Below, in pieces: positions 3,870-63,300 of a stretch of DNA of 64,000 nt; positions within the stretch are counted from its first letter, which is position 1; every line of letters starts with the position of its first letter. The stretch comes from Eutreptiella sp. 'Long Island Sound 2002' (taxonomy: Eukaryota; Euglenozoa; Euglenophyceae; Eutreptiales; Eutreptiaceae): positions 1 to 64,000 of the forward strand of contig CAXIWF010000910.1 of NCBI GenBank assembly GCA_964036045.1, read 5' to 3'. The notes below the pieces were generated by a model. That model saw nothing but the letters and a program-made list of their open reading frames with translations. It was not told the DNA's origin and made no database searches. Position numbers and translations under genes: made by a program.

Positions 3870-5590
3870 GGCGAACATGTTGCGATGAGTCATTGTCAAA
3901 GATATGGAAAAATAGGTTATCCTTATCCTAGAACCTCTGTCTAACGCGTGGAAAAAACATCCTAAGTATCCTGAACATCCCCAGCCTTTGGGACAGAACG
4001 TTAGGGCTAGGAAACATCCTAACTATGCCAAGTACTGAATATTCCTCGATAACACCAACGAATATACTACATATCCTAAGCGTGGTTACAATTACGGTTG
4101 TCATGAGTTATTTGCCATCACTACACATGCAAAATGTAAAAAGAACGATATTCTAACTCCTGTTGGAGAAAATATCCTAAATATCTTCAACTGACTGAAC
4201 ATTTGTTCTCAAAAATATCCCAAATATCCCAAGTACTTTGTGTGGCTCCGGGCATGTAATTATCCTAAACCTCCTGACCTGGCAAACATGTTGCGATGGG
4301 TCATTGTCAAAGAGATGGATAAACCGGTTAGCCTTAGCCTAAAAACACTGTCTAATTTGTGCAAAAAACATCCTAAGTATCCTAAATGTCCTCAACTTTT
4401 GGGACTGAAAGTTGGGGCTTTTTTTTGCACTGAACGGCGCCTTTTGTGGCTGGCCAGGCCCACTGAAAGTTGGGGCTAGCAAACATCTTTAATGTGCTAA
4501 GTACTCCACTTTCTTCGATAACAGCAAGGAATATCTTAAATATCCTAAGAGTGGTTACAAGTACGGTTGTGATGAGGAATTTGCCATTACTATACATGAA
4601 AAATCTAAGAATAAAAATATCATAAGTGCTGACGGAGAAAATATCCTAATTATCCTAAATATCCTAAACATCCCAATGGGCAAACAACGGGATGTTGAAA
4701 ATGTTGTGAGTCCTAATTTTGCCAAGTCAGTCATCCGAATCATCGGGAAGATCGTTAAACCTCATGCAGAAAATATCCTAAGTATCCCAAATGTTCTGAC
4801 CTGGCTCGTTTCTTTTCTCAAAAACATCCTAAATATCCTAAGTACGTAATATTGTTCGGGGCATATCATCGAACATATTGTAAGTATCCGCTATTGGTGT
4901 GATGAGTAAGTAGCGATGGCTAGAAGGAAGATATCATAAGTCCTATAGGAGACAATATTCGAATTATCCTAAATATTCTGAACCATCCAATGGGCCTACA
5001 ACAGGATGCTGAAAATGTTGTGCTCAGCACGTGTCAAATACTTCCTAATCTCGCCAGACCAAACATCCTGAATATCAGCACCATTCTCTCAGATCATGCA
5101 GAAAATATCCTAAATATCCCAAATATCCTCAATTGACTGAACGTTCTTGCTCAAAAATATCCTCAATATCCCAAGTACTTCATGTAGCTTTGGGCATAAC
5201 ACCAGAAATATTCCAAAGATTCGAAGAAGGGTTACAGCTACCATTGTGATGAGTACATTGCCAAAAATATCCTAAGTCCTGATGGAGACAATATCCTCAT
5301 TATGTGGACCATCCTCAACATCGTAATGGACAAACAAACGCAGGCTGAACATGTTGTGATAAGCAATCGTCAAAAACATCCCAACCTCGCCAGAACAAAT
5401 ATTCTAAATGCAAGAAAAGATCCTAAAACATCATGCAAAAAATATCCTAAATATCCTAAATATCCCTAGCTGACTCATCTAGACTGAAACCTCCTGCTGA
5501 AAAATGTCCAAAATATCCCAAGTACTTAATATTCTTCCAGGCAAGGACCAAAAATATCCTAACTATCCTAAAAAATGGTTACCGTTAAAG
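3870..5590 (+). repeat. Decayed ~320-470-bp tandem repeat rich in ATCCTAAAT
   Basis: A block containing GTTACA, a GGTTGTGATGAG-like core, TGATGGAGAAAATATCC and AATGGGCAAACAACAGG-like words recurs with divergence. The core occurs near 4091, 4561, 4891 and 5238. Between the cores are many ATCCTAAATATCC words, which encode KYPKYPK-like peptides in one frame. The copies are too diverged to share an open frame, so this is an old repeat rather than a gene. Confidence 0.6.
4404..4477 (-). mobile_element. 42-bp retroposon with 16-bp target-site duplication
   Basis: The insert (4420-4461) reads on the minus strand as GGGCCTGGCCAGCCACAAAA, then 15 further nt, then seven A. It is flanked by perfect copies of ACTGAAAGTTGGGGCT at 4404-4419 and 4462-4477. 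The sister module has the empty site, with a single ACTGAAAGTTGGGGCT near 24426. Poly(A) next to a long target duplication is the signature of LINE-type target-primed reverse transcription. No internal gene or Pol III box fits in 35 nt, so it must be mobilised in trans. Confidence 0.88.
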
Positions 5591-6611: not shown

Positions 6612-6622
6612 GTAAAATACTT

Positions 6623-6827
6623 GTAAAATCGGGGTAAAAATTGGGGATGTTTTTTGCCATACAAGGAGGGTGCTGGGTATACTTTGCACTGCACCACGGC
6701 CTCCTACCACCTTCAGAATGCATACCACTTCACAAATGCCTTCCTCTCTATCATTACATCACATTCCAACCCATAGTTGCTCACCCGGGATGCTCCCCTT
6801 GCTGGTCTCTCCGCTATTTACCACAAA
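6623..6827 (+). repeat. S-element, partial direct copy
   Basis: These 205 bp are repeated at 7041-7245 (offset 418) with about 90% identity by eye. The copy lies outside the satellite array. Equivalents are at 26587-26850 (interrupted by the second retroposon) and 45001-45205. Confidence 0.8.
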
Positions 6828-7250: not shown

Positions 7251-10200
7251 CCCTTTCATGTCCCAACACCCCATTCAAAAACACCCACCCCTCCCCCATC
7301 CGCATCAACACGCCATACCTACACTTTCGTGCAACCCCCCAAATGTGCTTACATTCACATTTGCATCCCACCGCACCCATCCAATTCCACACAGGCCACC
7401 GTACCCCGCCCTTTCATGTCCCAACAACCCATTCAAAAAGAACCACACACCAGCATCCGCATCAACACGCCGTACCTACACTTGTGGTAATCACCAGAGA
7501 GACCAGCAAGGGGAGCATCCCGGGTGAGCAACTATGGCTTGGAATGTGATGTAATGATCGAGGGGAGGGCAGCTGTGGAGTGCACCTCATTGCAAAGATG
7601 TTAGGAGGCCGTGGTGCAGTGCATGGTACAACCAGCACCCCCTCTGTGTAGCGAAAAACATAGCCGATTTTTACCCCAATTTTACTAGCGAGCGGTGGAC
7701 CTTAATGGAGCCACCGCGGCTGGAAATGTTTTTGCCTGGCAAAGCCAGTTCAGATGTCCATGGCAGCATCGCCCTTTCATGTTCTAACGACCCATTCAAA
7801 AACACCCACCCCCCCCCCATCCGCATCAACACGCCATACCTACACTTTCCTACAACCCCCCCAATGTGCTTACATTCACATTTGCATCCCACCGCATCCA
7901 CCCAACCCGGCACAGGCCACGGTACCCCGCCATTTCATGTTCCAACACCCCATTCAAAAACACCCACCCCTCCCCCATCCGCCTCAACGCGGCATACCTA
8001 CACTTTCGTGCAACCCCCGAAATGTGCTCACATTCACATTTGCATCCCACCGCATCCACCCAACCCCACACAGGCCACCGTACCCCGCCCTTTCATGTCC
8101 CAACACCCCATTCAAAAACACCCACCCCTCCTCCATCCGCATCAACACGCCATACCTACACTTTCGTGCGACCCCCCGTATGTGCTCACATTCACATTTG
8201 CATCCCACTGCACCCACCCAACCCCACACAGGCCACCGTACCTCGCCCTTTCGTGTTCCAACACCCCATTCAAAAACACCCACCCCTCCCCCATCCGCAT
8301 CAACACGCCATACCTGCACTTTCTTGCAACCCTCCCAATGTGCTCACATTCACATTTGCATCCCAGCGCATCCACCCAACCCGGCACAGGCCACGGTACC
8401 CCGCCATTTCATGTTCCAACACCCCATTCAAAAACACCCACCCCTCCCCCATCCGCCTCAACACGGCATACCTACACTTTCGTGCAACCCCCCAAATGTG
8501 CTCACATTCACATTTACATCCCACCGCACCCATCCAATTCCACACAGGCCACCGTACCCCGCCCTTTCATGTCCCAACAACCCATTCAAAAAGAACCACA
8601 CACCAGCATCCGCATCAACACGCCGTACCTACACTTGTGGTAATCACCAGAGAGACCAGCAAGGGGAGCATCCCGGGTGAGCAACTATGGCTTGGAATGT
8701 GATGTAATGATAGAGGGGAGGGCAGCTGTGGAGTGCACCTCATTGCAAAGATGTTAGGAGGCCGTGGTGCAGTGCATGGTACAACCAGCACCCCCTCTGT
8801 GTAGCGAAAAACATAGCCGATTTTTACCCCAATTTTACTAGCGAGCGGTGGACCTTAATGGAGCCACCGCGGCTGGAAATGTTTTTGCCTGGCAAAGCCA
8901 GTTCAGATGTCCATGGCAGCATCGCCCTTTCATGTTCCAACGACCCATTCAAAAACACCCACCCCTCCCCCATCCGCATCAACACGCCATACCTACACTT
9001 TCCTACAACCCCTCCAATGTGCTTACATTCACATTTGCATCCCACCGCATCCACCCAACCCGGCACAGGCCACGGTACCCCGCCATTTCATGTTCCAACA
9101 CCCCATTCAAAAACACCCACCCCTCCCCCATCCGCCTCAACGCGGCATACCTACACTTTCGTGCAACCCCCCAAATGTGCTCACATTCACATTTGCATCC
9201 CACCGCATCCACCCAACCCGGCACAGGCCACCGTACCCCGCCCTTTCATGTCCCAACACCCCATTCAAAAACACCCACCCCTCCTTCATCCGCATCAACA
9301 CGCCATACCTACACTTTCGTGCGACCCCCCGTATGTGCTCGCATTCACATTTGCATCCCACTGCACCCACCCAACCCCACACAGGCCACCGTACCTCGCC
9401 CTTTCATGTCCCAACACCCCATTCAAAAACACCCACCCCTCCCCCATCCGCATCAACACGCCATACCTACACTTTCCTACAACCCCCCCAATGTGCTCAC
9501 ATTCACATTTGCATCCCACCGCATCCACCCAACCCGGCACAGGCCACGGTACCCCGCCATTTCATGTTCCAACACCCCATTCAAAAACACCCACCCCTCC
9601 CCCATCCGCCTCAACACGGCATACCTACACCTTCGTGCAACCCCCCAAATGTGCTCACATTCACATTTGCATCCCACCGCATCCACCCAACCCCACACAG
9701 GCCACCGTACCCCGCCCTTTCATGTCCCAACACCCCATTCAAAAACACCCACCCCTCCCCCATCCGCCTCAACACGGCATACCTACACTTTCGTGCAACC
9801 CCCCAAATGTGCTCACATTCACATTTGCATCCCACTGCACCCACCCAACCCCACACAGGCCACCGTACCTCGCCCTTTCGTGTTCCAACACCCCATTCAA
9901 AAACACCCACCCCTCCCCCATCCGCATCAACACGCCATACCTGCACTTTCTTGCAACCCTCCCAATGTGCTCACATTCACATTTGCATCCCAGCGCATCC
10001 ACCCAACCCGGCACAGGCCACGGTACCCCGCCATTTCATGTTCCAACACCCCATTCAAAAACACCCACCCCTCCCCCATCCGCCTCAACACGGCATACCT
10101 ACACTTTCGTGCAACCCCCCAAATGTGCTCACATTCACATTTACATCCCACCGCACCCATCCAATTCCACACAGGCCACCGTACCCCGCCCTTTCATGTC

Positions 10201-13200
10201 CCAACAACCCATTCAAAAAGAACCACACACCAGCATCCGCATCAACACGCCGTACCTACACTTGCGGTAATCACCAGAGAGACCAGCAAGGGGAGCATCC
10301 CGGGTGAGCAACTATGGCTTGGAATGTGATGTAATGATAGAGGGGAGGGCAGCTGTGGAGTGCACCTCATTGCAAAGATGTTAGGAGGCCGTGGTGCAGT
10401 GCATGGTACAACCAGCACCCCCTCTGTGTAGCGAAAAACATAGCCGATTTTTACCCCAATTTTACTAGCGAGCGGTGGACCTTAATGGAGCCACCGCGGC
10501 TGGAAATGTTTTTGCCTGGCAAAGCCAGTTCAGATGTCCATGGCAGCATCGCCCTTTCATGTTCCAACGACCCATTCAAAAACACCCACCCCTCCCCCAT
10601 CCGCATCAACACGCCATACCTACACTTTCCTACAACCCCCCCAATGTGCTCACATTCACATTTGCATCCCACCGCATCCACCCAACCCGGCACAGGCCAC
10701 GGTACCCCGCCATTTCATGTTCCAACACCCCATTCAAAAACACCCACCCCTCCCCCATCCGCCTCAACACGGCATACCTACACTTTCGTGCAACCCCCCA
10801 AATGTGCTCACATTCACATTTGCATCCCACCGCATCCACCCAACCCCACACAGGCCACCGTACCCCGCCCTTTCATGTCCCAACACCCCATTCAAAAACA
10901 CCCACCCCTCCCCCATCCGCCTCAACACGGCATACCTACACTTTCGTGCAACCCCCCAAATGTGCTCGGATTCACATTTGCATCCCACCGCATCCACCCA
11001 ACCCGGCACAGGCCACGGTACCCCGCCGTTTCATGTTCCAACACCCCATTCAAAAACACCCACCCCTCCCCCATCCGCATCAACACGCCATACCTGCACT
11101 TTCTTGCAACCCTCCCAATGTGCTCACATTCACATTTGCATCCCATCGCATCCACCCAACCCGGCCCAGGCCACGGTACCCCGCCATTTCATGTTCCAAC
11201 ACCTATTCAAAAACACCCACCCCTCCCCCATCCGCCTCAACACGGCATACCTACACTTTCGTGAAACCACCCAAATGTGCTCACATTCACATTTGCATCC
11301 CACCGCATCCACCCAACCCCACACAGGCCACCGTACCCCGCCCTTTCATGTCCCAACACCCCATTCAAAAACACCCACCCATCCCTCATCCGCATCAACA
11401 CGCCATACCTACACTTTCGTGCGACCCCCCGTATGTGCTCGCATTCACATTTGCATCCCATCGCATCCACCCAACCCGGCCCAGGCCACGGTACCCCGCC
11501 ATTTCATGTTCCAACACCTATTCAAAAACACCCACCCCTCCCCCATCCGCCTCAACACGGCATACCTACACTTTCGTGAAACCACCCAAATGTGCTCACA
11601 TTCACATTTGCATCCCACCGCATCCACCCAACCCCACACAGGCCACCGTACCTCGCCCTTTCATATCCCAACACCCCATTCAAAAACACCCACCCCTCCC
11701 CCATCCGCATCAACACGCCATACCTACACTTTCTTGCAACCCCCCAAATGTGCTCACATTCACATTTGCATCCCACCGCATCCACCCAACCCCACACAGG
11801 CCACCGTACCCCGCCCTTTCATGTCCCAACACCCCATTCAAAAACACCCACCCCTCCTCCATCCGCATCAACACGCCATACCTACACTTTCGTGCGACCC
11901 CCCGTATGTGCTCACATTCACATTTGCATCCCACTGCACCCACCCAACCCCACACAGGCCACCGTACCTCGCCCTTTCGTGTTCCAACACCCCATTCAAA
12001 AACACCCAGCCCTCCCCCATCCGCATCAACACGCCATACCTACACTTTCTTGCAACCCCCCAAATGTGCTCACATTCACATTTGCATCCCACCGCATCCA
12101 CCCAACCCCACACAGGCCACCGTACCCCGCCCTTTCATGTCCCAACACCCCATTCAAAAACACCCACCCATCCCTCATCCGCATCAACACGCCATACCTA
12201 CACTTTCGTGCGACCCCCCGTATGTGCTCGCATTCACATTTGCATCCCACTGCACCCACCCAACCCCACACAGGCCACCGTACCTCGCCCTTTCATATCC
12301 CAACACCCCATTCAAAAACACCCACCCCTCCCCCATCCGCATCAACACGCCATACCTACACTTTCTTGCAACCCCCCAAATGTGCTCACATTCACATTTG
12401 CATCCCACCGCATCCACCCAACCCCACACAGGCCACCGTACCCCGCCCTTTCATGTCCCAACACCCCATTCAAAAACACCCACCCCTCCTCCATCCGCAT
12501 CAACACGCCATACCTACACTTTCGTGCGACCCCCCGTATGTGCTCACATTCACATTTGCATCCCACTGCACCCACCCAACCCCACACAGGCCACCGTACC
12601 TCGCCCTTTCGTGTTCCAACACCCCATTCAAAAACACCCACCCCTCCCCCATCCGCATCAACACGCCATACCTGCACTTTCTTGCAACCCCCGCAAGGTG
12701 CTCACATTCACATTTGCATCCCACCGCATCCACCCAACCCGGCACAGGCCACCGTACCTCGCCCTTTCGTGTCCCAACACCCCATTCAAAAACACCCACC
12801 CCTCCTCCATCCGCATCAACACGCCATACCTACACTTTCGTGCGACCCCCCGTATGTGCTCACATTCACATTTGCATCCCACTGCACCCACCCAACCCCA
12901 CACAGGCCACCGTACCTCGCCCTTTCATGTTCCAACGACCCATTCAAAAACACCCACCCCTCCCCCATCCGCATCAACACGCCATACCTACACTTTCCTA
13001 CAACCCCCCCAATGTGCTTACATTCACATTTGCATCCCACCGCATCCACCCAACCCGGCACAGGCCACGGTACCCCGCCATTTCATGTTCCAACACCCCA
13101 TTCAAAAACACCCACCCCTCCCCCATCCGCCTCAACGCGGCATACCTACACTTTCGTGCAACCCCCGAAATGTGCTCACATTCACATTTGCATCCCACCG

Positions 13201-16200
13201 CATCCACCCAACCCCACACAGGCCACCGTACCCCGCCCTTTCATGTCCCAACACCCCATTCAAAAACACCCACCCCTCCTCCATCCGCATCAACAGGCCA
13301 TACCTACACTTTCGTGCGACCCCCCGTATGTGCTCACATTCACATTTGCATCCCACTGCACCCACCCAACCCCACACAGGCCACCGTACCTCGCCCTTTC
13401 GTGTTCCAACACCCCATTCAAAAACACCCACCCCTCCCCCATCCGCATCAACACGCCATACCTGCACTTTCTTGCAACCCTCCCAATGTGCTCACATTCA
13501 CATTTGCATCCCAGCGCATCCACCCAACCCGGCCCAGGCCACGGTACCCCGCCATTTCATGTTCCAACACCCCATTCAAAAACACCCACCCCTCCCCCAT
13601 CCGCCTCAACACGGCATACCTACACTTTCGTGCAACCCCCCAAATGGGCTCACATTCACATTTACATCCCACCGCACCCATCCAATTCCACACAGGCCAC
13701 CGTACCCCGCCCTTTCATGTCCCAACAACCCATTCAAAAAGAACCACACACCAGCATCCGCATCAACACGCCGTACCTACACTTGTGGTAATCACCAGAG
13801 AGACCAGCAAGGGGAGCATCCCGGGTGAGCAACTATGGCTTGGAATGTGATGTAATGATAGAGGGGAGGGCAGCTGTGGAGTGCACCTCATTGCAAAGAT
13901 GTTAGGAGGCCGTGGTGCAGTGCATGGTACAACCAGCACCCCCTCTGTGTAGCGAAAAACATAGCCGATTTTTACCCCAATTTTACTAGCGAGCGGTGGA
14001 CCTTAATGGAGCCACCGCGGCTGGAAATGTTTTTGCCTGGCAAAGCCAGTTCAGATGTCCATGGCAGCATCGCCCTTTCATGTTCCAACGACCCATTCAA
14101 AAACACCCACCCCTCCCCCATCCGCATCAACACGCCATACCTACACTTTCCTACAACCCCTCCAATGTGCTTACATTCACATTTGCATCCCACCGCATCC
14201 ACCCAACCCGGCACAGGCCACGGTACCCCGCCATTTCATGTTCCAACACCCCATTCAAAAACACCCACCCCTCCCCCATCCGCCTCAACGCGGCATACCT
14301 ACACTTTCGTGCAACCCCCCAAATGTGCTCACATTCACATTTGCATCCCACCGCATCCACCCAACCCGGCACAGGCCACCGTACCCCGCCCTTTCATGTC
14401 CCAACACCCCATTCAAAAACACCCACCCCTCCTTCATCCGCATCAACACGCCATACCTACACTTTCGTGCGACCCCCCGTATGTGCTCGCATTCACATTT
14501 GCATCCCACTGCACCCACCCAACCCCACACAGGCCACCGTACCTCGCCCTTTCATGTCCCAACACCCCATTCAAAAACACCCACCCCTCCCCCATCCGCA
14601 TCAACACGCCATACCTACACTTTCCTACAACCCCCCCAATGTGCTCACATTCACATTTGCATCCCACCGCATCCACCCAACCCGGCACAGGCCACGGTAC
14701 CCCGCCATTTCATGTTCCAACACCCCATTCAAAAACACCCACCCCTCCCCCATCCGCCTCAACACGGCATACCTACACTTTCGTGCAACCCCCCAAATGT
14801 GCTCACATTCACATTTGCATCCCACCGCATCCACCCAACCCCACACAGGCCACCGTACCCCGCCCTTTCATGTCCCAACACCCCATTCAAAAACACCCAC
14901 CCCTCCCCCATCCGCCTCAACACGGCATACCTACACTTTCGTGCAACCCCCCAAATGTGCTCGGATTCACATTTGCATCCCACCGCATCCACCCAACCCG
15001 GCACAGGCCACGGTACCCCGCCGTTTCATGTTCCAACACCCCATTCAAAAACACCCACCCCTCCCCCATCCGCATCAACACGCCATACCTGCACTTTCTT
15101 GCAACCCTCCCAATGTGCTCACATTCACATTTGCATCCCATCGCATCCACCCAACCCGGCACAGGCCACGGTACCCCGCCATTTCATGTTCCAACCCCCA
15201 TTCAAAAACACCCACCCCTCCCCCATCCGCCTCAACACGGCATACCTACACTTTCGTGAAACCACCCAAATGTGCTCACATTCACATTTGCATCCCACCG
15301 CATCCACCCAACCCCACACAGGCCACCGTACCCCGCCCTTTCATGTCCCAACACCCCATTCAAAAACACCCACCCATCCCTCATCCGCATCAACACGCCA
15401 TACCTACACTTTCGTGCGACCCCCCGTATGTGCTCGCATTCACATTTGCATCCCACTGCACCCACCCAACCCCACACAGGCCACCGTACCTCGCCCTTTC
15501 ATATCCCAACACCCCATTCAAAAACACCCACCCCTCCCCCATCCGCATCAACACGCCATACCTACACTTTCTTGCAACCCCCCAAATGTGCTCACATTCA
15601 CATTTGCATCCCACCGCATCCACCCAACCCCACACAGGCCACCGTACCCCGCCCTTTCATGTCCCAACACCCCATTCAAAAACACCCACCCCTCCTCCAT
15701 CCGCATCAACACGCCATACCTACACTTTCGTGCGACCCCCCGTATGTGCTCACATTCACATTTGCATCCCACTGCACCCACCCAACCCCACACAGGCCAC
15801 CGTACCTCGCCCTTTCGTGTTCCAACACCCCATTCAAAAACACCCACCCCTCCCCCATCCGCATCAACACGCCATACCTGCACTTTCTTGCAACCCCCCC
15901 AATGTGCTCACATTCACATTTGCATCCCACCGCATCCACCCAACCCGGCACAGGCCACCGTACCCCGCCCTTTCATGTCCCAACACCCCATTCAAAAACA
16001 CCCACCCCTCCCCCATCCGCATCAACACGCCATACCTACACTTTCGTGCAACCCCCCAAATGTGCTCACATTCACATTTGCATCCCACCGCACCCATCCA
16101 ATTCCACACAGGCCACCGTACCCCGCCCTTTCATGTCCCAACAACCCATTCAAAAAGAACCACACACCAGCATCCGCATCAACACGCCGTACCTACACTT

Positions 16201-17545
16201 GTGGTAATCACCAGAGAGACCAGCAAGGGGAGCATCCCGGGTGAGCAACTATGGCTTGGAATGTGATGTAATGATCGAGGGGAGGGCAGCTGTGGAGTGC
16301 ACCTCATTGCAAAGATGTTAGGAGGCCGTGGTGCAGTGCATGGTACAACCAGCACCCCCTCTGTGTAGCGAAAAACATAGCCGATTTTTACCCCAATTTT
16401 ACTAGCGAGCGGTGGACCTTAATGGAGCCACCGCGGCTGGAAATGTTTTTGCCTGGCAAAGCCAGTTCAGATGTCCATGGCAGCATCGCCCTTTCATGTT
16501 CCAACGACCCATTCAAAAACACCCACCCCTCCCCCATCCGCATCAACACGCCATACCTACACTTTCCTACAACCCCCCCAATGTGCTTACATTCACATTT
16601 GCATCCCACCGCATCCACCCAACCCGGCACAGGCCACGGTACCCCGCCATTTCATGTTCCAACACCCCATTCAAAAACACCCACCCCTCCCCCATCCGCC
16701 TCAACGCGGCATACCTACACTTTCGTGCAACCCCCGAAATGTGCTCACATTCACATTTGCATCCCACCGCATCCACCCAACCCCACACAGGCCACCGTAC
16801 CCCGCCCTTTCATGTCCCAACACCCCATTCAAAAACACCCACCCCTCCTCCATCCGCATCAACACGCCATACCTACACTTTCGTGCGACCCCCCGTATGT
16901 GCTCACATTCACATTTGCATCCCACTGCACCCACCCAACCCCACACAGGCCACCGTACCTCGCCCTTTCGTGTTCCAACACCCCATTCAACAACACCCAC
17001 CCCTCCCCCATCCGCATCAACACGCCATACCTGCACTTTCTTGCAACCCTCCCAATGTGCTCACATTCACATTTGCATCCCAGCGCATCCACCCAACCCG
17101 GCACAGGCCACGGTACCCCGCCATTTCATGTTCCAACACCCCATTCAAAAACACCCACCCCTCCCCCATCCGCCTCAACACGGCATACCTACACTTTCGT
17201 GCAACCCCCCAAATGTGCTCACATTCACATTTGCATCCCACCGCATCCACCCAACCCGGCACAGGCCACCGTACCCCGCCCTTTCATGTCCCAACACCCC
17301 ATTCGAAAACACCCACCCCTCCTTCATCCGCATCAACACGCCATACCTACACTTTCGTGCGACCCCCCGTATGTGCTCGCATTCACATTTGCATCCCACT
17401 GCACCCACCCAACCCCACACAGGCCACCGTACCTCGCCCTTTCATGTCCCAACACCCCATTCAAAAACACCCACCCCTCCCCCATCCGCATCAACACGCC
17501 ATACCTACACTTTCCTACAACCCCCCCAATGTGCTCACATTCACA
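7251..17545 (+). repeat. Satellite array A: 158-bp monomers in higher-order blocks
   Basis: The monomer starts ccctttcatgtcccaacacc and is 158 bp; my hand count gives 77 C but only 13 G. Blocks are 7251-7487 (1.5 monomers), 7772-8640 (5.5), 8925-10267 (8.5), 10552-13788 (20.5), 14073-16204 (13.5) and 16489-17545 (6.7, truncated). Each complete block ends in a variant half-monomer (CAACAACCCATTCAAAAAGA) followed by a 284-bp spacer starting at 7488, 8641, 10268, 13789 or 16205. The monomer has no stop in any forward frame, so overlapping frames of hundreds of codons arise by chance. On the minus strand an ~81-codon frame recurs every 158 bp. None is treated as a gene. The array ends abruptly within a monomer at 17545. 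Confidence 0.95.
7488..7771 (-). repeat. S-element spacer between satellite blocks (type copy)
   Basis: This 284-bp spacer runs from TAATCACCAGAGAGACCAGC to TGGCAGCATCG and is an inverted copy of 6964-7231. The same spacer begins at 8641, 10268, 13789 and 16205 in array A and at 27511, 29927, 31554, 32707, 34176 and 35329 in array B. Copies differ at a diagnostic C/A in taatgatCgagg / taatgatAgagg. Confidence 0.9.
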
Positions 17546-21996: not shown

Positions 21997-24900
21997 CGGT
22001 AATAGTCACCCATATCCTAAAATGAGCTATTGACACAGTAAACCCCCCCTATTTCGGGGTCGCTGAGTCCAAAACGTCACTCATTTTGCGAATCCGAGAC
22101 GGTGGCGTCGAGCTATGGGGGAGGGGGGTCCTAACGAGCGGTGGGGGGTCCGAAAAACCCCCCTTCCAAAATGCGTTCGCATAAGGGCGCTGTCACAAGG
22201 ACGTTATGCTACGCACATCCTTCTTGGAGGCACACTTTCTGAGTGTCTATTTTTTTTCGGTATATACTCGCTCCTTACTAGGCAGCTTTGGTGCTTTCAG
22301 CGCCACTTTGTGGAGGCCAATGGGCCAATCTCCTTCCAAAACCAAAGTCCTCTCCACTGGAGTCCGGATCATAGGCTCAAGCTCAGCACCCACCATTTAC
22401 TCCGCACACATCCGCACACATGTCCCTCCCCTTTGCGTAACACCCTGCCCTTCCTTCCCTGGTGGTATCGCGGCATGCGCTGCCCCGCCCCTTCCGCCCC
22501 TCCCCCCTAGGGGAGTAGGGTTTGTCCATGTCCCTTGTGCGCAGGAGACAATGGGGTGGGGTGGGGTGGGGGGGTGCATGCGCGCAGTTGAGGCCGCGGT
22601 CACATTTTGTCGGCCCATTTGTGTGTGCTTCTTGCTTACTTGGGCCCTGGTTCCCCGTTTGCAGGGTATCTTTGTCTGATTGTGCCCCATGTGCGGCGCT
22701 TAACGGCCGAATCTGTTCGTTGCTGGCCCGTTCGGACGCGGACAATGATTTGTGCCATGTGATGTTTTTTCCAATCTGTTGCATTCGGTGACGTTGCCGA
22801 TCGATGTGCACAGTGATACGCTGTATGGAGAGTGTTGTCCTGGGGACAGCTTGTTTTTTGGGCTTCTAGTCAGCTTTGCTGGGAGTTTTGTTTTGTATTC
22901 TTTGCACCATGTCGTGCTGTGAGCAATGTGTTGTGTCTTGTGCGCAGTGCTGTCTATTGCAAGCTGTATCCAAAAACTTCCATGGTGCAGAACAAAGGTC
23001 TCATTGAAGCTCATGTTTTTCGCACATGGCCGCCATGGCACCTTCTTAGGAGCTAGATCTTCCTCTGAGTGTGCTGAGACCATCCCGCCCCCCTCCTGGA
23101 CAAGAATCTTAGAGATTCCAAATGTGCACATGCCTCTACAATGCCACATACCTTCGGGAAATCCTTCTGTGTAACCCGCATAGGCCTGTACGCAAAGGCT
23201 AAAAAGGAGTTCAAAAATTTGCTGAACGAGGAATCTCAACAACCCTAGCTCCTTGAGGGAATATATGAATGGTCCAAATGCTCGATCTAGCCATAATTCA
23301 AAGGCAGGAAATACATTCTAAACTGTAAGCCACAAATTATCATAACTATTGCAACTTTCCTCAACCTCTTTTGTCCGCAAAAATCTTGACGCAGTGATAT
23401 TGCAGGTAGTAAAGACGTATCACTATTACTATCGCAAAAAGGAATGTCGAAGTGGTCCACTTCACGGTTCAAAAAATCCTAGTTTGTTGCGTGACGATGT
23501 TACAAATTTTGTACATACCATTGTCTGTTGGAAACAGAACACTGCATGTGTCCTGTGTGCTACAAAACCGCGGCTGCCAAAGTACTGCATGATTCGATGC
23601 TCAACAACTTACCAAAATGTCAAACCCATAGCAGATGAGGTATGGGATCAAATTGTCCTAACCAATTTTGAGAAACATCCCAGATGTCCCCAATATCCTA
23701 GTGAGTTTAAAATACAATATCACAATCTTCTACACAACCATAGATCTATCAAGGCTGCGCATCCCGATGGCTAACCCGTACGAAATGAAAAGCGCGCCAA
23801 CGAATGTCCTAAGTCGTGTTTGAGAAAACGATCCTAAGTCCGAATGCAGAAAAGATCCTAATGATTCTAATTATCATAAAAGTCCTAACCAGGCGAACAT
23901 GTTGCGATGAGTCATTGTCAAAGATATGGAAAAATAGGTTATCCTTATCCTAGAACCTCTGTCTAACGCGTGGAAAAAACATCCTAAGTATCCTGAACAT
24001 CCCCAGCCTTTGGGACAGAACGTTAGGGCTAGGAAACATCCTAACTATGCCAAGTACTGAATATTCCTCGATAACACCAACGAATATACTACATATCCTA
24101 AGCGTGGTTACAATTACGGTTGTCATGAGTTATTTGCCATCACTACACATGCAAAATGTAAAAAGAACGATATTCTAACTCCTGTTGGAGAAAATATCCT
24201 AAATATCTTCAACTGACTGAACATTTGTTCTCAAAAATATCCCAAATATCCCAAGTACTTTGTGTGGCTCCGGGCATGTAATTATCCTAAACCTCCTGAC
24301 CTGGCAAACATGTTGCGATGGGTCATTGTCAAAGAGATGGATAAACCGGTTAGCCTTAGCCTAAAAACACTGTCTAATTTGTGCAAAAAACATCCTAAGT
24401 ATCCTAAATGTCCTCAACTTTTGGGACTGAAAGTTGGGGCTAGCAAACATCTTTAATGTGCTAAGTACTCCACTTTCTTCGATAACAGCAAGGAATATCT
24501 TAAATATCCTAAGAGTGGTTACAAGTACGGTTGTGATGAGGAATTTGCCATTACTATACATGAAAAATCTAAGAATAAAAATATCATAAGTGCTGACGGA
24601 GAAAATATCCTAATTATCCTAAATATCCTAAACATCCCAATGGGCAAACAACGGGATGTTGAAAATGTTGTGAGTCCTAATTTTGCCAAGTCAGTCATCC
24701 GAATCATCGGGAAGATCGTTAAACCTCATGCAGAAAATATCCTAAGTATCCCAAATGTTCTGACCTGGCTCGTTTCTTTTCTCAAAAACATCCTAAATAT
24801 CCTAAGTACGTAATATTGTTCGGGGCATATCATCGAACATATTGTAAGTATCCGCTATTGGTGTGATGAGTAAGTAGCGATGGCTAGAAGGAAGATATCA

Positions 24901-27273
24901 TAAGTCCTATAGGAGACAATATTCGAATTATCCTAAATATTCTGAACCATCCAATGGGCCTACAACAGGATGCTGAAAATGTTGTGCTCAGCACGTGTCA
25001 AATACTTCCTAATCTCGCCAGACCAAACATCCTGAATATCAGCACCATTCTCTCAGATCATGCAGAAAATATCCTAAATATCCCAAATATCCTCAATTGA
25101 CTGAACGTTCTTGCTCAAAAATATCCTCAATATCCCAAGTACTTCATGTAGCTTTGGGCATAACACCAGAAATATTCCAAAGATTCGAAGAAGGGTTACA
25201 GCTACCATTGTGATGAGTACATTGCCAAAAATATCCTAAGTCCTGATGGAGACAATATCCTCATTATGTGGACCATCCTCAACATCGTAATGGACAAACA
25301 AACGCAGGCTGAACATGTTGTGATAAGCAATCGTCAAAAACATCCCAACCTCGCCAGAACAAATATTCTAAATGCAAGAAAAGATCCTAAAACATCATGC
25401 AAAAAATATCCTAAATATCCTAAATATCCCTAGCTGACTCATCTAGACTGAAACCTCCTGCTGAAAAATGTCCAAAATATCCCAAGTACTTAATATTCTT
25501 CCAGGCAAGGACCAAAAATATCCTAACTATCCTAAAAAATGGTTACCGTTAAAGCTAAGGTTAACCGTAACCCCTTTTTTTAGGATAATTAGGATATTTT
25601 CCCAAAAAAATGATCGGGTGTTTGGGATATTTTAGAACGCAAAAGTAACCTACTAGGATGCATTCTTTTGGCACTCACAAACCACCTCGCCTATGGAATG
25701 AGGCCTCAAGACAACACAAACAGCCCTGAACCAGTGCACCACACATGTGTAACGGCAGCACTGACAGCACTCAATTATACACTGATGTGATCAGAATTTC
25801 AATGATTCTCAGATGTACATTAGTGCAGTAAATTTTCCGCTTGTTTTCATGTTTTCCGTTCGCCGCCAGATGTCGCCTGTGAGCGCGCGTCGAGTCGCAT
25901 TTGTCTTTCGTGATTTCCCAATCGGATTTATTTAAATTATTTCGAATGATTTCACGTTGTGTCATTATGTGCGATGAATGCGCATTGAGATTCTATGTCT
26001 GCTCCATTTTTGTAGACCGGGTTTTCGTACTCTTCATATTCCACCATGGAGTTCAAAGGACTTACAAGTGCTTCGCATATGTCGCTCCCCTAAGCTGGAT
26101 ATGGGTCTGAAGAGGGTTATGTGGGTTCGGAGATATCAGGGGCAGTGTCGGGCGTTACGACCCCTGGGGCATCAAGGCTACAGGCTTCGCAGTTACAACA
26201 AAGATCAACCATTATGCAGCGGTTACAACATGTTCCTCACATGGCACCACACAAAAGGAAGAAACACTACACCACATCAATCCACACCACGCTAGACCAC
26301 ACCACACCACCTTTCACCGCACTGCCCCAGGATGTGCCCCGCAATGTGGCCCACGATGTGCCCCAGAATGTGCCCCTCAATGCTCACCAGAATGTGACCC
26401 ATGATGTGCCCCACCATGTGCCCCACCATGTGCCGCACGATGTGCCCGCCAAATGCCAATTGATGTGCCCCATGATGTGCCCCACAGTGTGCCCCACTGT
26501 GAACCCCACGATGTGCCCTGGGATGTGCCCCACCATGTGCCCCACCATGTGCCGCAGGATGTGCCCCACCATGTAGTAAAATACTTGTAAAATCGGGGTA
26601 AAAATTGGGGATGTTTTTTGCCATACAAGGAGGGTGCTGGGTATACTTTGCACTGCACCACGGCCTCCTACCACCTTCAGAATGCATACCACTTCACAAA
26701 TGCCTTCCTCTCTATCATTACATCACATTCCAACCCATAGTTGCTCACCCGGGATGCTTTTTTTTTGCACTGAACGGCGCCTTTTGTGGCTGGCCAGGCC
26801 TGCTCACCCGGGATGCTCCCCTTGCTGGTCTCTCCGCTATTTACCACAAACCATACATAAAAAAAAGGCATGTTTCTGGGTAGTTCTCCATAGGCATAGT
26901 CGGCAACCCAAGGGACCCCTTCAGGATGTATCCACGGCTTCTGTGCCCCAAGCCAATGGCGTTGGTGAGGTCTCTGGGATCAGGGCATGGACATCCGAAC
27001 CCGGTTTGCCAAACCAAAACATTGTCCAGCCGCCGCAGCTCCATTAAGGTCCACCGCTCACTAGTAAAATCGGGGTAAAAACTGGGGATGTTTTTCGCCA
27101 TACAAGGAGGGTGGTGGGTATACTTTGCACTGCACCACGGCCTCCTACCACCTTCAGAATGCATTCCACTTCACAAATGCCTTCGTTTCTATCATTACAT
27201 CACATTCCAACCCATGGTTGCTCGACCGGGATGCTACCCTTGCTGGTCTCTCCGCTGTTTACCACAAATCCCG
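21802..27273. repeat. Module M2 (second copy of M1 in the unit)
   Basis: Near-identical to 1780-7250. It lacks the retroposon at the position equivalent to 4420 and carries its own at 26759. Equivalents are: gtcgctga motif 22043-22130, decayed ATCCTAAAT repeat about 23892-25554, hairpin 25512-25604, gene-free stretch 25605-26329, 12-bp minisatellite 26330-26575, S-elements 26587-26850 and 26987-27273. No supported gene. Confidence 0.92.
26742..26817 (-). mobile_element. Second copy of the 42-bp retroposon, 17-bp target-site duplication
   Basis: The insert (26759-26800) reads on the minus strand as GGCCTGGCCAGCCACAAAAG, then 14 further nt, then eight A. Its 34-nt body is identical to the first copy apart from one fewer 5' G. 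It is flanked by perfect TGCTCACCCGGGATGCT at 26742-26758 and 26801-26817. The empty site in M1 has one TGCTCACCCGGGATGCT (about 6778-6794). Two copies with the same 5' end indicate a complete small RNA rather than random truncation. Confidence 0.88.
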
Positions 27274-40157: not shown

Positions 40158-43100
40158 CGCGCGCGCGCGACCAAAAACTCGGTAATAACCGCCCCAACCG
40201 CCAAATCTGAGTTGATATTCGGATTCAGCGACATCAAAATAGGGGGGGGGGGTACTAGTTTACCCATGTAGGTCCCCAGGGGGTCCTGCTCTAACACCAC
40301 CCCAAAAGGGGTATCCCCATTCGTGGTGAGGAACGGGCAGAGCCTACCGAGTCGGTAATAGTCACCCATATCCTAAAATGAGCTATTGACACAGTAAACC
40401 CCCCCTATTTCGGGGTCGCTGAGTCCAAAACGTCACTCATTTTGCGAATCCGAGACGGTGGCGTCGAGCTATGGGGGAGGGGGGTCCTAACGAGCGGTGG
40501 GGGGTCCGAAAAACCCCCCCTCCAAAATGCGTTCGCATAAGGGCGCTGTCACAAGGACGTTATGCTACGCACATCCTTCTTGGAGGCACACTTTCTGAGT
40601 GTCTATTTTTTTTCGGTATATACTCGCTCCTTACTAGGCAGCTTTGGTGCTTTCAGCGCCACTTTGTGGAGGCCAATGGGCCAATCTCCTTCCAAAACCA
40701 AAGTCCTCTCCACTGGAGTCCGGATCATAGGCTCAAGCTCAGCACCCACCATTTACTCCGCACACATCCGCACACATGTCCCTCCCCTTTGCGTAACACC
40801 CTGCCCTTCCTTCCCTGGTGGTATCGCGGCATGCGCTGCCCCGCCCCTTCCGCCCCTCCCCCCTAGGGGAGTAGGGTTTGTCCATGTCCCTTGTGCGCAG
40901 GAGACAATGGGGTGGGGTGGGGTGGGGGGGTGCATGCGCGCAGTTGAGGCCGCGGTCACATTTTGTCGGCCCATTTGTGTGTGCTTCTTGCTTACTTGGG
41001 CCCTGGTTCCCCGTTTGCAGGGTATCTTTGTCTGATTGTGCCCCATGTGCGGCGCTTAACGGCCGAATCTGTTCGTTGCTGGCCCGTTCGGACGCGGACA
41101 ATGATTTGTGCCATGTGATGTTTTTTCCAATCTGTTGCATTCGGTGACGTTGCCGATCGATGTGCACAGTGATACGCTGTATGGAGAGTGTTGTCCTGGG
41201 GACAGCTTGTTTTTTGGGCTTCTAGTCAGCTTTGCTGGGAGTTTTGTTTTGTATTCTTTGCACCATGTCGTGCTGTGAGCAATGTGTTGTGTCTTGTGCG
41301 CAGTGCTGTCTATTGCAAGCTGTATCCAAAAACTTCCATGGTGCAGAACAAAGGTCTCATTGAAGCTCATGTTTTTCGCACATGGCCGCCATGGCACCTT
41401 CTTAGGAGCTAGATCTTCCTCTGAGTGTGCTGAGACCATCCCGCCCCCCTCCTGGACAAGAATCTTAGAGATTCCAAATGTGCACATGCCTCTACAATGC
41501 CACATACCTTCGGGAAATCCTTCTGTGTAACCCGCATAGGCCTGTACGCAAAGGCTAAAAAGGATTTCAAAAATTTGCTGAACGAGGAATCTCAACAACC
41601 CTAGCTCCTTGAGGGAATATATGAATGGTCCAAATGCTCGATCTAGCCATAATTCAAAGGCAGGAAATACATTCTAAACTGTAAGCCACAAATTATCATA
41701 ACTATTGCAACTTTCCTCAACCTCTTTTGTCCGCAAAAATCTTGACGCAGTGATATTGCAGGTAGTAAAGACGTATCACTATTACTATCGCAAAAAGGAA
41801 TGTCGAAGTGGTCCACTTCACGGTTCAAAAAATCCTAGTTTGTTGCGTGACGATGTTACAAATTTTGTACATACCATTGTCTGTTGGAAACAGAACACTG
41901 CATGTGTCCTGTGTGCTACAAAACCGCGGCTGCCAAAGTACTGCATGATTCGATGCTCAACAACTTACCAAAATGTCAAACCCATAGCAGATGAGGTATG
42001 GGATCAAATTGTCCTAACCAATTTTGAGAAACATCCCAGATGTCCCCAATATCCTAGTGAGTTTAAAATACAATATCACAATCTTCTACACAACCATAGA
42101 TCTATCAAGGCTGCGCATCCCGATGGCTAACCCGTACGAAATGAAAAGCGCGCCAACGAATGTCCTAAGTCGTGTTTGAGAAAACGATCCTAAGTCCGAA
42201 TGCAGAAAAGATCCTAATGATTCTAATTATCATAAAAGTCCTAACCAGGCGAACATGTTGCGATGAGTCATTGTCAAAGATATGGAAAAATAGGTTATCC
42301 TTATCCTAGAACCTCTGTCTAACGCGTGGAAAAAACATCCTAAGTATCCTGAACATCCCCAGCCTTTGGGACAGAACGTTAGGGCTAGGAAACATCCTAA
42401 CTATGCCAAGTACTGAATATTCCTCGATAACACCAACGAATATACTACATATCCTAAGCGTGGTTACAATTACGGTTGTCATGAGTTATTTGCCATCACT
42501 ACACATGCAAAATGTAAAAAGAACGATATTCTAACTCCTGTTGGAGAAAATATCCTAAATATCTTCAACTGACTGAACATTTGTTCTCAAAAATATCCCA
42601 AATATCCCAAGTACTTTGTGTGGCTCCGGGCATGTAATTATCCTAAACCTCCTGACCTGGCAAACATGTTGCGATGGGTCATTGTCAAAGAGATGGATAA
42701 ACCGGTTAGCCTTAGCCTAAAAACACTGTCTAATTTGTGCAAAAAACATCCTAAGTATCCTAAATGTCCTCAACTTTTGGGACTGAAAGTTGGGGCTTTT
42801 TTTTGCACTGAACGGCGCCTTTTGTGGCTGGCCAGGCCCACTGAAAGTTGGGGCTAGCAAACATCTTTAATGTGCTAAGTACTCCACTTTCTTCGATAAC
42901 AGCAAGGAATATCTTAAATATCCTAAGAGTGGTTACAAGTACGGTTGTGATGAGGAATTTGCCATTACTATACATGAAAAATCTAAGAATAAAAATATCA
43001 TAAGTGCTGACGGAGAAAATATCCTAATTATCCTAAATATCCTAAACATCCCAATGGGCAAACAACGGGATGTTGAAAATGTTGTGAGTCCTAATTTTGC

Positions 43101-45628
43101 CAAGTCAGTCATCCGAATCATCGGGAAGATCGTTAAACCTCATGCAGAAAATATCCTAAGTATCCCAAATGTTCTGACCTGGCTCGTTTCTTTTCTCAAA
43201 AACATCCTAAATATCCTAAGTACGTAATATTGTTCGGGGCATATCATCGAACATATTGTAAGTATCCGCTATTGGTGTGATGAGTAAGTAGCGATGGCTA
43301 GAAGGAAGATATCATAAGTCCTATAGGAGACAATATTCGAATTATCCTAAATATTCTGAACCATCCAATGGGCCTACAACAGGATGCTGAAAATGTTGTG
43401 CTCAGCACGTGTCAAATACTTCCTAATCTCGCCAGACCAAACATCCTGAATATCAGCACCATTCTCTCAGATCATGCAGAAAATATCCTAAATATCCCAA
43501 ATATCCTCAATTGACTGAACGTTCTTGCTCAAAAATATCCTCAATATCCCAAGTACTTCATGTAGCTTTGGGCATAACACCAGAAATATTCCAAAGATTC
43601 GAAGAAGGGCTACAGCTACCATTGTGATGAGTACATTGCCAAAAATATCCTAAGTCCTGATGGAGACAATATCCTCATTATGTGGACCATCCTCAACATC
43701 GTAATGGACAAACAAACGCAGGCTGAACATGTTGTGATAAGCAATCGTCAAAAACATCCCAACCTCGCCAGAACAAATATTCTAAATGCAAGAAAAGATC
43801 CTAAAACATCATGCAAAAAATATCCTAAATATCCTAAATATCCCTAGCTGACTCATCTAGACTGAAACCTCCTGCTGAAAAATGTCCAAAATATCCCAAG
43901 TACTTAATATTCTTCCAGGCAAGGACCAAAAATATCCTAACTATCCTAAAAAATGGTTACCGTTAAAGCTAAGGTTAACCGTAACCCTTTTTTTTAGGAT
44001 AATTAGGATATTTTCCCAAAAAAATGATCGGGTGTTTGGGATATTTTAGAACGCAAAAGTAACCTACTAGGATGCATTCTTTTGGCACTCACAAACCACC
44101 TCGCCTATGGAATGAGGCCTCAAGACAACACAAACAGCCCTGAACCAGTGCACCACACATGTGTAACGGCAGCACTGACAGCACTCAATTATACACTGAT
44201 GTGATCAGAATTTCAATGATTCTCAGATGTACATTAGTGCAGTAAATTTTCCGCTTGTTTTCATGTTTTCCGTTCGCCGCCAGATGTCGCCTGTGAGCGC
44301 GCGTCGAGTCGCATTTGTCTTTCGTGATTTCCCAATCGGATTTATTTAAATTATTTCGAATGATTTCACGTTGTGTCATTATGTGCGATGAATGCGCATT
44401 GAGATTCTATGTCTGCTCCATTTTTGTAGACCGGGTTTTCGTACTCTTCATATTCCACCATGGAGTTCAAAGGACTTACAAGTGCTTCGCATATGTCGCT
44501 CCCCTAAGCTGGATATGGGTCTGAAGAGGGTTATGTGGGTTCGGAGATATCAGGGGCAGTGTCGGGCGTTACGACCCCTGGGGCATCAAGGCTACAGGCT
44601 TCGCAGTTACAACAAAGATCAACCACTATGCAGCGGTTACAACATGTTCCTCACATGGCACCACACAAAAGGAAGAAACACTACACCACATCAATCCACA
44701 CCACGCTAGACCACACCACACCACCTTTCACCGCACTGCCCCAGGATGTGCCCCGCAATGTGGCCCACGATGTGCCCCAGAATGTGCCCCTCAATGCTCA
44801 CCAGAATGTGACCCATGATGTGCCCCACCATGTGCCCCACCATGTGCCGCACGATGTGCCCGCCAAATGCCAATTGATGTGCCCCATGATGTGCCCCACA
44901 GTGTGCCCCACTGTGAACCCCACGATGTGCCCTGGGATGTGCCCCACCATGTGCCCCACCATGTGCCGCAGGATGTGCCCCACCATGTAGTAAAATACTT
45001 GTAAAATCGGGGTAAAAATTGGGGATGTTTTTTGCCATACAAGGAGGGTGCTGGGTATACTTTGCACTGCACCACGGCCTCCTACCACCTTCAGAATGCA
45101 TACCACTTCACAAATGCCTTCCTCTCTATCATTACATCACATTCCAACCCATAGTTGCTCACCCGGGATGCTCCCCTTGCTGGTCTCTCCGCTATTTACC
45201 ACAAACCATACATAAAAAAAAGGCATGTTTCTGGGTAGTTCTCCATAGGCATAGTCGGCAACCCAAGGGACCCCTTCAGGATGTATCCACGGCTTCTGTG
45301 CCCCAAGCCAATGGCGTTGGTGAGGTCTCTGGGATCAGGGCATGGACATCCGAACCCGGTTTGCCAAACCAAAACATTGTCCAGCCGCCGCAGCTCCATT
45401 AAGGTCCACCGCTCACTAGTAAAATCGGGGTAAAAACTGGGGATGTTTTTCGCCATACAAGGAGGGTGGTGGGTATACTTTGCACTGCACCACGGCCTCC
45501 TACCACCTTCAGAATGCATTCCACTTCACAAATGCCTTCGTTTCTATCATTACATCACATTCCAACCCATGGTTGCTCGACCGGGATGCTACCCTTGCTG
45601 GTCTCTCCGCTGTTTACCACAAATCCCG
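40158..45628. repeat. Module M1 of the second unit
   Basis: Copy of 1780-7250; one substitution noticed (5232/43610, T/C). It holds the truncated TIR element (40158-40352), G-tract 40909-40930, decayed ATCCTAAAT repeat 42248-43968, hairpin 43926-44018, a gene-free stretch 44019-44743, minisatellite 44744-44989 and S-elements 45001-45205 and 45342-45628. No supported gene. Confidence 0.92.
42782..42855 (-). mobile_element. 42-bp retroposon, second-unit copy of the M1 insertion
   Basis: Insert 42798-42839 with target duplications 42782-42797 and 42840-42855, identical to 4404-4477. It was copied with the 38-kb unit and is not a new insertion. Confidence 0.88.
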
Positions 45629-60374: not shown

Positions 60375-63300
60375 CGGTAATAGTCACCCATATCCTAAAA
60401 TGAGCTATTGACACAGTAAACCCCCCCTATTTCGGGGTCGCTGAGTCCAAAACGTCACTCATTTTGCGAATCCGAGACGGTGGCGTCGAGCTATGGGGGA
60501 GGGGGGTCCTAACGAGCGGTGGGGGGTCCGAAAAACCCCCCTTCCAAAATGCGTTCGCATAAGGGCGCTGTCACAAGGACGTTATGCTACGCACATCCTT
60601 CTTGGAGGCACACTTTCTGAGTGTCTATTTTTTTTCGGTATATACTCGCTCCTTACTAGGCAGCTTTGGTGCTTTCAGCGCCACTTTGTGGAGGCCAATG
60701 GGCCAATCTCCTTCCAAAACCAAAGTCCTCTCCACTGGAGTCCGGATCATAGGCTCAAGCTCAGCACCCACCATTTACTCCGCACACATCCGCACACATG
60801 TCCCTCCCCTTTGCGTAACACCCTGCCCTTCCTTCCCTGGTGGTATCGCGGCATGCGCTGCCCCGCCCCTTCCGCCCCTCCCCCCTAGGGGAGTAGGGTT
60901 TGTCCATGTCCCTTGTGCGCAGGAGACAATGGGGTGGGGTGGGGTGGGGGGGTGCATGCGCGCAGTTGAGGCCGCGGTCACATTTTGTCGGCCCATTTGT
61001 GTGTGCTTCTTGCTTACTTGGGCCCTGGTTCCCCGTTTGCAGGGTATCTTTGTCTGATTGTGCCCCATGTGCGGCGCTTAACGGCCGAATCTGTTCGTTG
61101 CTGGCCCGTTCGGACGCGGACAATGATTTGTGCCATGTGATGTTTTTTCCAATCTGTTGCATTCGGTGACGTTGCCGATCGATGTGCACAGTGATACGCT
61201 GTATGGAGAGTGTTGTCCTGGGGACAGCTTGTTTTTTGGGCTTCTAGTCAGCTTTGCTGGGAGTTTTGTTTTGTATTCTTTGCACCATGTCGTGCTGTGA
61301 GCAATGTGTTGTGTCTTGTGCGCAGTGCTGTCTATTGCAAGCTGTATCCAAAAACTTCCATGGTGCAGAACAAAGGTCTCATTGAAGCTCATGTTTTTCG
61401 CACATGGCCGCCATGGCACCTTCTTAGGAGCTAGATCTTCCTCTGAGTGTGCTGAGACCATCCCGCCCCCCTCCTGGACAAGAATCTTAGAGATTCCAAA
61501 TGTGCACATGCCTCTACAATGCCACATACCTTCGGGAAATCCTTCTGTGTAACCCGCATAGGCCTGTACGCAAAGGCTAAAAAGGAGTTCAAAAATTTGC
61601 TGAACGAGGAATCTCAACAACCCTAGCTCCTTGAGGGAATATATGAATGGTCCAAATGCTCGATCTAGCCATAATTCAAAGGCAGGAAATACATTCTAAA
61701 CTGTAAGCCACAAATTATCATAACTATTGCAACTTTCCTCAACCTCTTTTGTCCGCAAAAATCTTGACGCAGTGATATTGCAGGTAGTAAAGACGTATCA
61801 CTATTACTATCGCAAAAAGGAATGTCGAAGTGGTCCACTTCACGGTTCAAAAAATCCTAGTTTGTTGCGTGACGATGTTACAAATTTTGTACATACCATT
61901 GTCTGTTGGAAACAGAACACTGCATGTGTCCTGTGTGCTACAAAACCGCGGCTGCCAAAGTACTGCATGATTCGATGCTCAACAACTTACCAAAATGTCA
62001 AACCCATAGCAGATGAGGTATGGGATCAAATTGTCCTAACCAATTTTGAGAAACATCCCAGATGTCCCCAATATCCTAGTGAGTTTAAAATACAATATCA
62101 CAATCTTCTACACAACCATAGATCTATCAAGGCTGCGCATCCCGATGGCTAACCCGTACGAAATGAAAAGCGCGCCAACGAATGTCCTAAGTCGTGTTTG
62201 AGAAAACGATCCTAAGTCCGAATGCAGAAAAGATCCTAATGATTCTAATTATCATAAAAGTCCTAACCAGGCGAACATGTTGCGATGAGTCATTGTCAAA
62301 GATATGGAAAAATAGGTTATCCTTATCCTAGAACCTCTGTCTAACGCGTGGAAAAAACATCCTAAGTATCCTGAACATCCCCAGCCTTTGGGACAGAACG
62401 TTAGGGCTAGGAAACATCCTAACTATGCCAAGTACTGAATATTCCTCGATAACACCAACGAATATACTACATATCCTAAGCGTGGTTACAATTACGGTTG
62501 TCATGAGTTATTTGCCATCACTACACATGCAAAATGTAAAAAGAACGATATTCTAACTCCTGTTGGAGAAAATATCCTAAATATCTTCAACTGACTGAAC
62601 ATTTGTTCTCAAAAATATCCCAAATATCCCAAGTACTTTGTGTGGCTCCGGGCATGTAATTATCCTAAACCTCCTGACCTGGCAAACATGTTGCGATGGG
62701 TCATTGTCAAAGAGATGGATAAACCGGTTAGCCTTAGCCTAAAAACACTGTCTAATTTGTGCAAAAAACATCCTAAGTATCCTAAATGTCCTCAACTTTT
62801 GGGACTGAAAGTTGGGGCTAGCAAACATCTTTAATGTGCTAAGTACTCCACTTTCTTCGATAACAGCAAGGAATATCTTAAATATCCTAAGAGTGGTTAC
62901 AAGTACGGTTGTGATGAGGAATTTGCCATTACTATACATGAAAAATCTAAGAATAAAAATATCATAAGTGCTGACGGAGAAAATATCCTAATTATCCTAA
63001 ATATCCTAAACATCCCAATGGGCAAACAACGGGATGTTGAAAATGTTGTGAGTCCTAATTTTGCCAAGTCAGTCATCCGAATCATCGGGAAGATCGTTAA
63101 ACCTCATGCAGAAAATATCCTAAGTATCCCAAATGTTCTGACCTGGCTCGTTTCTTTTCTCAAAAACATCCTAAATATCCTAAGTACGTAATATTGTTCG
63201 GGGCATATCATCGAACATATTGTAAGTATCCGCTATTGGTGTGATGAGTAAGTAGCGATGGCTAGAAGGAAGATATCATAAGTCCTATAGGAGACAATAT

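Follow-up and report, generated by a model that had tools for sequence, protein, structure and literature searches.

A 34-nucleotide sequence with an A-run, recently inserted at two sites of a large tandem array

The question raised by this locus is how one and the same 34-nt sequence, followed by a short A-run and enclosed by direct repeats, came to lie at two positions of a 64,000-nt stretch of DNA (here called the window, meaning the whole stretch that was analyzed). The window is made of a 38,378-bp tandem repeat, of which it contains 1.67 units. Positions 1-25622 and 38379-64000 are 99.953% identical, with 12 substitutions and 0 indels in 25,622 bases. Within each unit there are two paralogous modules, M1 (from 1781) and M2 (from 21803), which share ∼5.9 kb and then pass into 158-bp tandem arrays.

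Filled and empty sites in paralogous modules

Once the two inserts were removed, M1 and M2 could be aligned without a gap over 5,946 bases, differing by 4 substitutions; the two inserts carrying the 34-nt body are the sole length differences between the modules in these compared bases. The 7-bp gaps at 1714-1720 and 21778-21784 belong to an alignment begun 81 bases ahead of the module, in the unrelated sequence that precedes 1781 and 21803. The features of the two insertions, including their target site duplications (TSDs), are as follows.

4404..4419, unstranded: left TSD of site 1, 16 bp
4419..4426, minus strand: T-run on the plus strand, equal to the oligo(A) of the element at site 1 (8 T, one of them in the TSD)
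4427..4460, minus strand: body copy 1, 34 nt, 0 mismatches
4461..4461, minus strand: single extra base (G when read in element sense) at the 5' end of body copy 1
4462..4477, unstranded: right TSD of site 1, 16 bp
24426..24441, unstranded: empty site 1 in M2, with the duplicated word once
62804..62819, unstranded: second-unit copy of empty site 1
26742..26758, unstranded: left TSD of site 2, 17 bp
26758..26766, minus strand: T-run on the plus strand, equal to the oligo(A) of the element at site 2 (9 T, one of them in the TSD)
26767..26800, minus strand: body copy 2, 34 nt, 0 mismatches
26801..26817, unstranded: right TSD of site 2, 17 bp
6778..6794, unstranded: empty site 2 in M1
45156..45172, unstranded: second-unit copy of empty site 2, with the word once there on that strand
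42782..42855, minus strand: site 1 insertion repeated in the second 38,378-bp unit, with the body at 42805-42838

Read in element sense, i.e., on the minus strand, the body is GGCCTGGCCAGCCACAAAAGGCGCCGTTCAGTGC (34 nt), and it is followed by A8 or A9, with one A common to the duplication. Both TSDs are perfect, and their sequences are unrelated to each other. When 58 or 59 bp (the insert plus one repeat) was excised, the exact sequence of the empty sister site was obtained, with flanks of at least 60 bp, in all three filled/empty pairs tested. This exact restoration bears out the original prediction of an A-tailed 34-nt insert with perfect 16-bp TSDs opposite an empty sister site, and equally that of a second insertion having the same body, its own 17-bp duplication, and its own empty site in M1. 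At up to 3 mismatches the body was found three times in the window, whereas 100 shuffles averaged 0, the third occurrence (42805-42838) being the site 1 insertion in the next unit and no separate event.

Scanning one unit for similar structures (direct repeats of at least 11 bases, separated by 25 to 600 bp, where the junction has at least 6 A or 6 T in a row) yielded 9 pairs. These included the two inserts; six others lay in ATCCTAAAT-rich repeats, three per module, and the pair at 20978/21181 was a piece of a longer imperfect repeat.

The direction of the change could be read at site 2. Its 17-bp word recurs 16 times in the window on the opposite strand, and the 209-bp stretch around the site has 13 more copies per unit, all with equal aligned spans and none with the insert. 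Each of these 13 copies contains the target word once, exactly in 11 and with 2 mismatches in 2, so that the empty state is the ancestral one at site 2 and the change was an insertion. We thus conclude that the 34-nt sequence was inserted recently at two sites of the window. The 209-bp repeat itself (6619-6827) is present in 2 direct copies (94%) and 11 inverted copies (83%) per unit, beside the 158-bp arrays. These arrays (7770-17545 and 27793-35924) contain long open reading frames (ORFs) in all three plus-strand frames and are organized in higher-order blocks.

Copies encoded in predicted ORFs on other contigs

Further copies were sought in a protein collection, as peptides that the body encodes by accident where it lies inside a predicted ORF. 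A first query, made of five frames, returned 1 protein (P0007) at E ≤ 10 among 3 candidates; its calibration indicated that a lone copy would score an E value of 57 to 400 and would thus be missed. A second query, a single frame preceded by FFF, retrieved all 4 of its candidates (P0008 to P0011). The FFF favors ORF copies with T-runs, and this query missed P0007 even though 13 of its 14 residues occur there, so that its sensitivity is incomplete and copy number is not inferable from it. The five body-encoding proteins lie on five other contigs of 3.34, 0.43, 1.82, 1.51, and 4.08 Mb, respectively, which may represent more than one species.

All 34 nt of the body were compatible with the codons of P0007 (which has two copies in opposite orientation), P0008, P0009, and P0010, and none of 2000 shuffled bodies fitted P0007. 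P0011 showed 2 mismatches, both within the 5'-terminal six bases of the body, and may be 5' truncated instead of mutated. The antisense copy of P0007 and the copy of P0010 have the right flank RGE.LLRAKLFQGGAGA.NQV in common and were counted as one site, giving five ORF sites and, with the two in the window, seven in total. The common flank reflects either an insertion that was duplicated together with its surroundings or a longer repeat that contains the body. As the idea of an independent mobile sequence had implied, the copies are dispersed, with different flanks among the seven sites, P0007 and P0010 alone having a common flank beside the body. The two bodies in P0007 stand with their tails face to face, 30 nt apart and with no clear duplications, possibly as a nested or twin insertion.

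The 5' boundary was nearly constant. At six of the seven sites the complete body extended to the same 5' base (at codon resolution for the ORF copies), P0011 being altered near that end. The base preceding GGCC in element sense was G (the extra base) in M1 and A in M2; from codon constraints, it was T in the sense copy of P0007, C in the antisense copy of P0007 and P0010, A in P0008, C in P0009, and C in P0011. Since all four letters occur at this position, there is no longer sequence common to all sites, although at the three sites with a preceding C the boundary may be displaced outward by one or more bases. The additional G in front of copy 1 had originally been taken as a possible cap-copied nucleotide. 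It is a single base at one site, with A, T, C, A, C, and C at the other six, and copy 1 therefore provides no argument for a cap.

At the other end, the longest A-run compatible with the codons was 3 for the sense and 6 for the antisense copy of P0007, 13 for P0008, 10 for P0009, 12 for P0010, and 10 for P0011, all these figures being upper limits because phenylalanine codons can be TTT or TTC.

Target duplications at the ORF sites were assessed by a codon-compatible comparison of the flanks, taking the best result over all allowed tail lengths, with random right flanks drawn from the 3,309 residues of P0001 to P0006. P0008 had a duplication of 20 nt with 0 mismatches, matched by 0 of 3000 random flanks (21 nt with 1 mismatch, 10 of 3000). 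For P0011, a duplication of 17 nt with 1 mismatch was equaled by 70 of 3000 random flanks, and no mismatch-free duplication of at least 8 nt was found in its flanks. P0009, where the start of the ORF cuts the left flank, had 12 nt (58 of 3000 as good) or 14 nt with 1 mismatch (352 of 3000). The sense copy of P0007 reached at best 12 nt with 1 mismatch; its antisense copy showed no duplication of at least 10 nt at up to 1 mismatch, and the pair treated as a single insertion showed none of at least 8 nt. In P0010 the left flank lies outside the ORF. The signal among the five ORF sites was thus strong at one, moderate at one, weak at one, and absent at two. Overall, target duplications are shown at two sites and are well supported at a third and moderately supported at a fourth, as judged from DNA at the first two and from codons otherwise.

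Origin of the inserts

An A-run, target duplications, and a constant 5' end are together the signature of LINE-type target-primed insertion. The inserts have perfect target duplications that differ in length (16 bp at one window site and 17 bp at the other), and their 3' A-tails differ as well, with 8 A in one copy and 9 in the other. They therefore probably arose when a single, very short polyadenylated RNA was copied by target-primed reverse transcription. The template would be a polyadenylated RNA consisting of the 34-nt body with a fixed 5' end and an oligo(A) tail. A LINE-kind endonuclease/reverse transcriptase (RT), provided in trans, would nick the target, prime on the oligo(A), and copy the RNA through to its 5' end, and integration would leave the 16- and 17-bp duplications seen in the window. 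The target-primed mechanism, the full length of the RNA template, and the provision of the enzyme in trans are all inferred. The original proposal of independent retroposition of a very short body is supported by two clean filled/empty pairs and by five further sites with different flanks.

The constant 5' end could also have another cause. The 34 nt may have come from a longer retroelement or mRNA as its 3' end, copying having ended at the same base each time through an RT stop or because the template ended there. It is well established that LINE-type insertions frequently suffer 5' truncation, and a parent could lie in the genome beyond the examined sequence; moreover, P0007 and P0010 have a flank beside the body in common, and P0011 may be shorter at its 5' end. 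However, the complete body is present at six of seven sites, with all four letters preceding GGCC. The fold predicted for the body plus the extra G (35 nt) is also no stabler than that of shuffled sequences (z = 0.43; 124 of 200 shuffles equally stable), and in this fold an RT starting from the tail would meet the stem ahead of the 5' end. With so unremarkable a fold, a structure-induced stop explains the constant 5' end poorly and the end of the template explains it better. We therefore regard a longer parent as improbable, even though the ambiguity at the 5' end of P0011 and the flank common to P0007 and P0010 strengthen it and weaken the retroposition of a short RNA.

Another possibility is that the sequence propagates itself as a minute SINE, some of its copies being transcribed and serving as masters. 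The bodies are identical and activity was recent, the two modules differing by 2 insertions and 4 substitutions, and the body contains a weak B-box-like match, GTTCAGTGC, at 8 of 9 positions. Nevertheless, when consensus patterns of the two boxes were applied, 193 of 2000 shuffles scored as well as this B-box match and 1486 of 2000 as well as the best A-box match, and 34 nt is generally short for a type-2 polymerase III (Pol III) promoter; we consider this explanation very unlikely. The earlier argument that so short an element has no room for a Pol III promoter is accordingly plausible but falls short of proof, given the loose match of 8 of 9 (193 of 2000 shuffles). In the absence of a convincing Pol III promoter in the 34 nt, the copies are probably dead and derived from one or a few donor genes.

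Explanations at the DNA level, i.e., filler DNA at double-strand breaks, a MITE, or another DNA transposon, are highly implausible. A few filler insertions are known to create short duplications, but here the same body, with the A-run at the same end, lies between duplications of 16 and 17 bp at two unrelated targets, and its ends have no inverted arms, with only short overlapping palindromes reported in the filled sites. The chance of an assembly or library artefact is negligible: large near-identical tandem repeats such as the one in the window are hard to assemble, but matched target duplications do not arise from an adapter or chimera, the site 1 insertion is present again in a unit differing by 12 substitutions in 25,622 bases, and the body is present in five ORFs on other contigs.

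Returning to retroposition of a short RNA, the donor is most likely a small host RNA or a processed fragment. The original prediction had named a small capped RNA, a spliced-leader-like RNA, or a processed fragment as possible sources and had suggested comparison with spliced-leader, small nuclear, and small nucleolar RNA genes; the comparisons made here supported none of the proposed donors. Set against the Rhabdomonas costata leader (PMC8219788), the sole leader compared with it, the body was no more similar than shuffles were, and it does not have the T-rich, CG-terminated end of the euglenid leader type; a dinoflagellate leader did not occur in the window even when 3 mismatches were allowed. 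A spliced-leader origin is thus disfavored. The wider comparison with small RNAs identified no Rfam family above chance level: at E ≤ 10 there were 9 matches, all far under the gathering scores, with a best E value of 0.099 outside the body and of 0.72 overlapping it.

Candidates from the window itself were rejected as well, neither the 5S rRNA nor the 3' end of the Penelope-like element described below aligning to the body above shuffles. No 10- to 13-mers of the body occurred elsewhere in one unit. Exact body patterns gave 0 matches in the viral_contigs collection (29, 21, and 20 nt) and 0 in genome_contigs, a collection of prokaryotic DNA (28 nt), and six 15-mers of the body were absent from the searched literature.

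Going one step further, the donor might represent a distinct and abundant class of polyadenylated RNA, ∼34 nt long, whose 5' end is fixed and may be capped and which is retroposed at a high rate in this lineage. We put this forward tentatively, as a doubtful extension.

Relation to known retroposons and neighboring elements

The inserts are best read as a small-RNA-retropseudogene- or SINE-like retroposon that is unusual by its size and by a donor not matched to a known RNA. Like SINEs, they are dispersed, short, apparently nonautonomous, and A-tailed, with flanking target duplications; unlike SINEs, they have no demonstrable Pol III promoter. SINEs usually measure at least ∼70 to 80 bp, and the 34-nt body is about half of that or less.

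The small-RNA retropseudogenes mobilized by LINE-1 derive from tRNA, Y RNA, snRNA, snoRNA, and rRNA (PMC13174262). They resemble the inserts in having a short RNA body, target duplications, an A-tail, and dispersal. The differences from these mammalian copies are the 34-nt body, the lack of a matched parent RNA, and the probable euglenid host. Mammalian tailless retropseudogenes (PMC5322556) are 5'-complete copies of small RNAs with duplications, recorded in a screen with a lower limit of 30 nt. They are similarly very short, 5' complete, and flanked by duplications, but they have no oligo(A) and are 3' truncated, whereas an A-run of 8 or 9 follows both bodies in the window. The tRNA halves fused to LINE-1 are RNA fragments of comparable size (30 to 40 nt) that lie, mostly antisense, within chimeric LINE-1 insertions (PMC13174262); in contrast, the body described here stands alone.

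Literature searches, for example for "shortest SINE," retrieved no such element, judging by titles and the starts of abstracts. Nothing was found that joined spliced leader, retroposition, and SINE (at least four of five terms), and none of the matches listed for Euglena SINEs contained the word Euglena. For the E. gracilis assembly, PMC11252322 gives SINEs as 0.11% of the genome and unclassified repeats as 32.7%.

If target-primed reverse transcription is the correct reading, it would lower the known size of an RNA that can be copied and fixed as a family by this route, and it would point to a small polyadenylated RNA not described so far, in organisms for which the record of retroelements is poor. 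The ratio of 2 insertions to 4 substitutions between the modules would further imply either very high recent activity or strong homogenization of the array. Inserts so short are probably missed by standard repeat finders. Should the abundant class of ∼34-nt RNA be real, its copies would be the smallest known family of retroposons and would record an undescribed RNA throughout the genome.

The sole RT noticed in the window belongs to a Penelope-like element, for which we saw no link to the inserts.

36349-39674, minus strand: Penelope-like element, recognized by eye and from its relatives, with flanking repeats at 35950-36522 and 1207-1779

Its flanking direct repeats of 573 bp are 99.8% identical, AATTCCAAAAAA units form its 3' tail, and an upstream ORF overlaps the RT ORF by 4 bases. 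Five relatives show 34 to 88% identity, and two of these contain PF26215 (Pfam). Pfam gave only a weak RVT_1 match here and no endonuclease domain; the RT protein had 0 matches in viral_contigs and 0 among solved structures at E ≤ 1. The flanking repeat also contains a CTGATGAG...GAAAC motif (36101-36129 and 1358-1386, both on the minus strand) that looks by eye like a hammerhead core, with no Rfam match at E ≤ 1. For the cluster of RT proteins encoded in the 38,378-bp repeat, 76 member sequences are listed together with a single 1.38-Mb contig, and the array may therefore be long.

Each unit also carries a 5S rRNA gene, located with Rfam at 21468-21586 and 59846-59964. Three of the 12 substitutions between units fall within 64 bp (21435-21498 and 59813-59876) at and just upstream of the 5S start, a cluster that looks as if it arose by gene conversion. 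The 5S sequence appears to resemble Euglena 5S rRNA closely, and a euglenid is on this basis the probable host. Directly downstream of the gene, at 21602-21647, lies an inverted repeat with perfect 17-bp arms.
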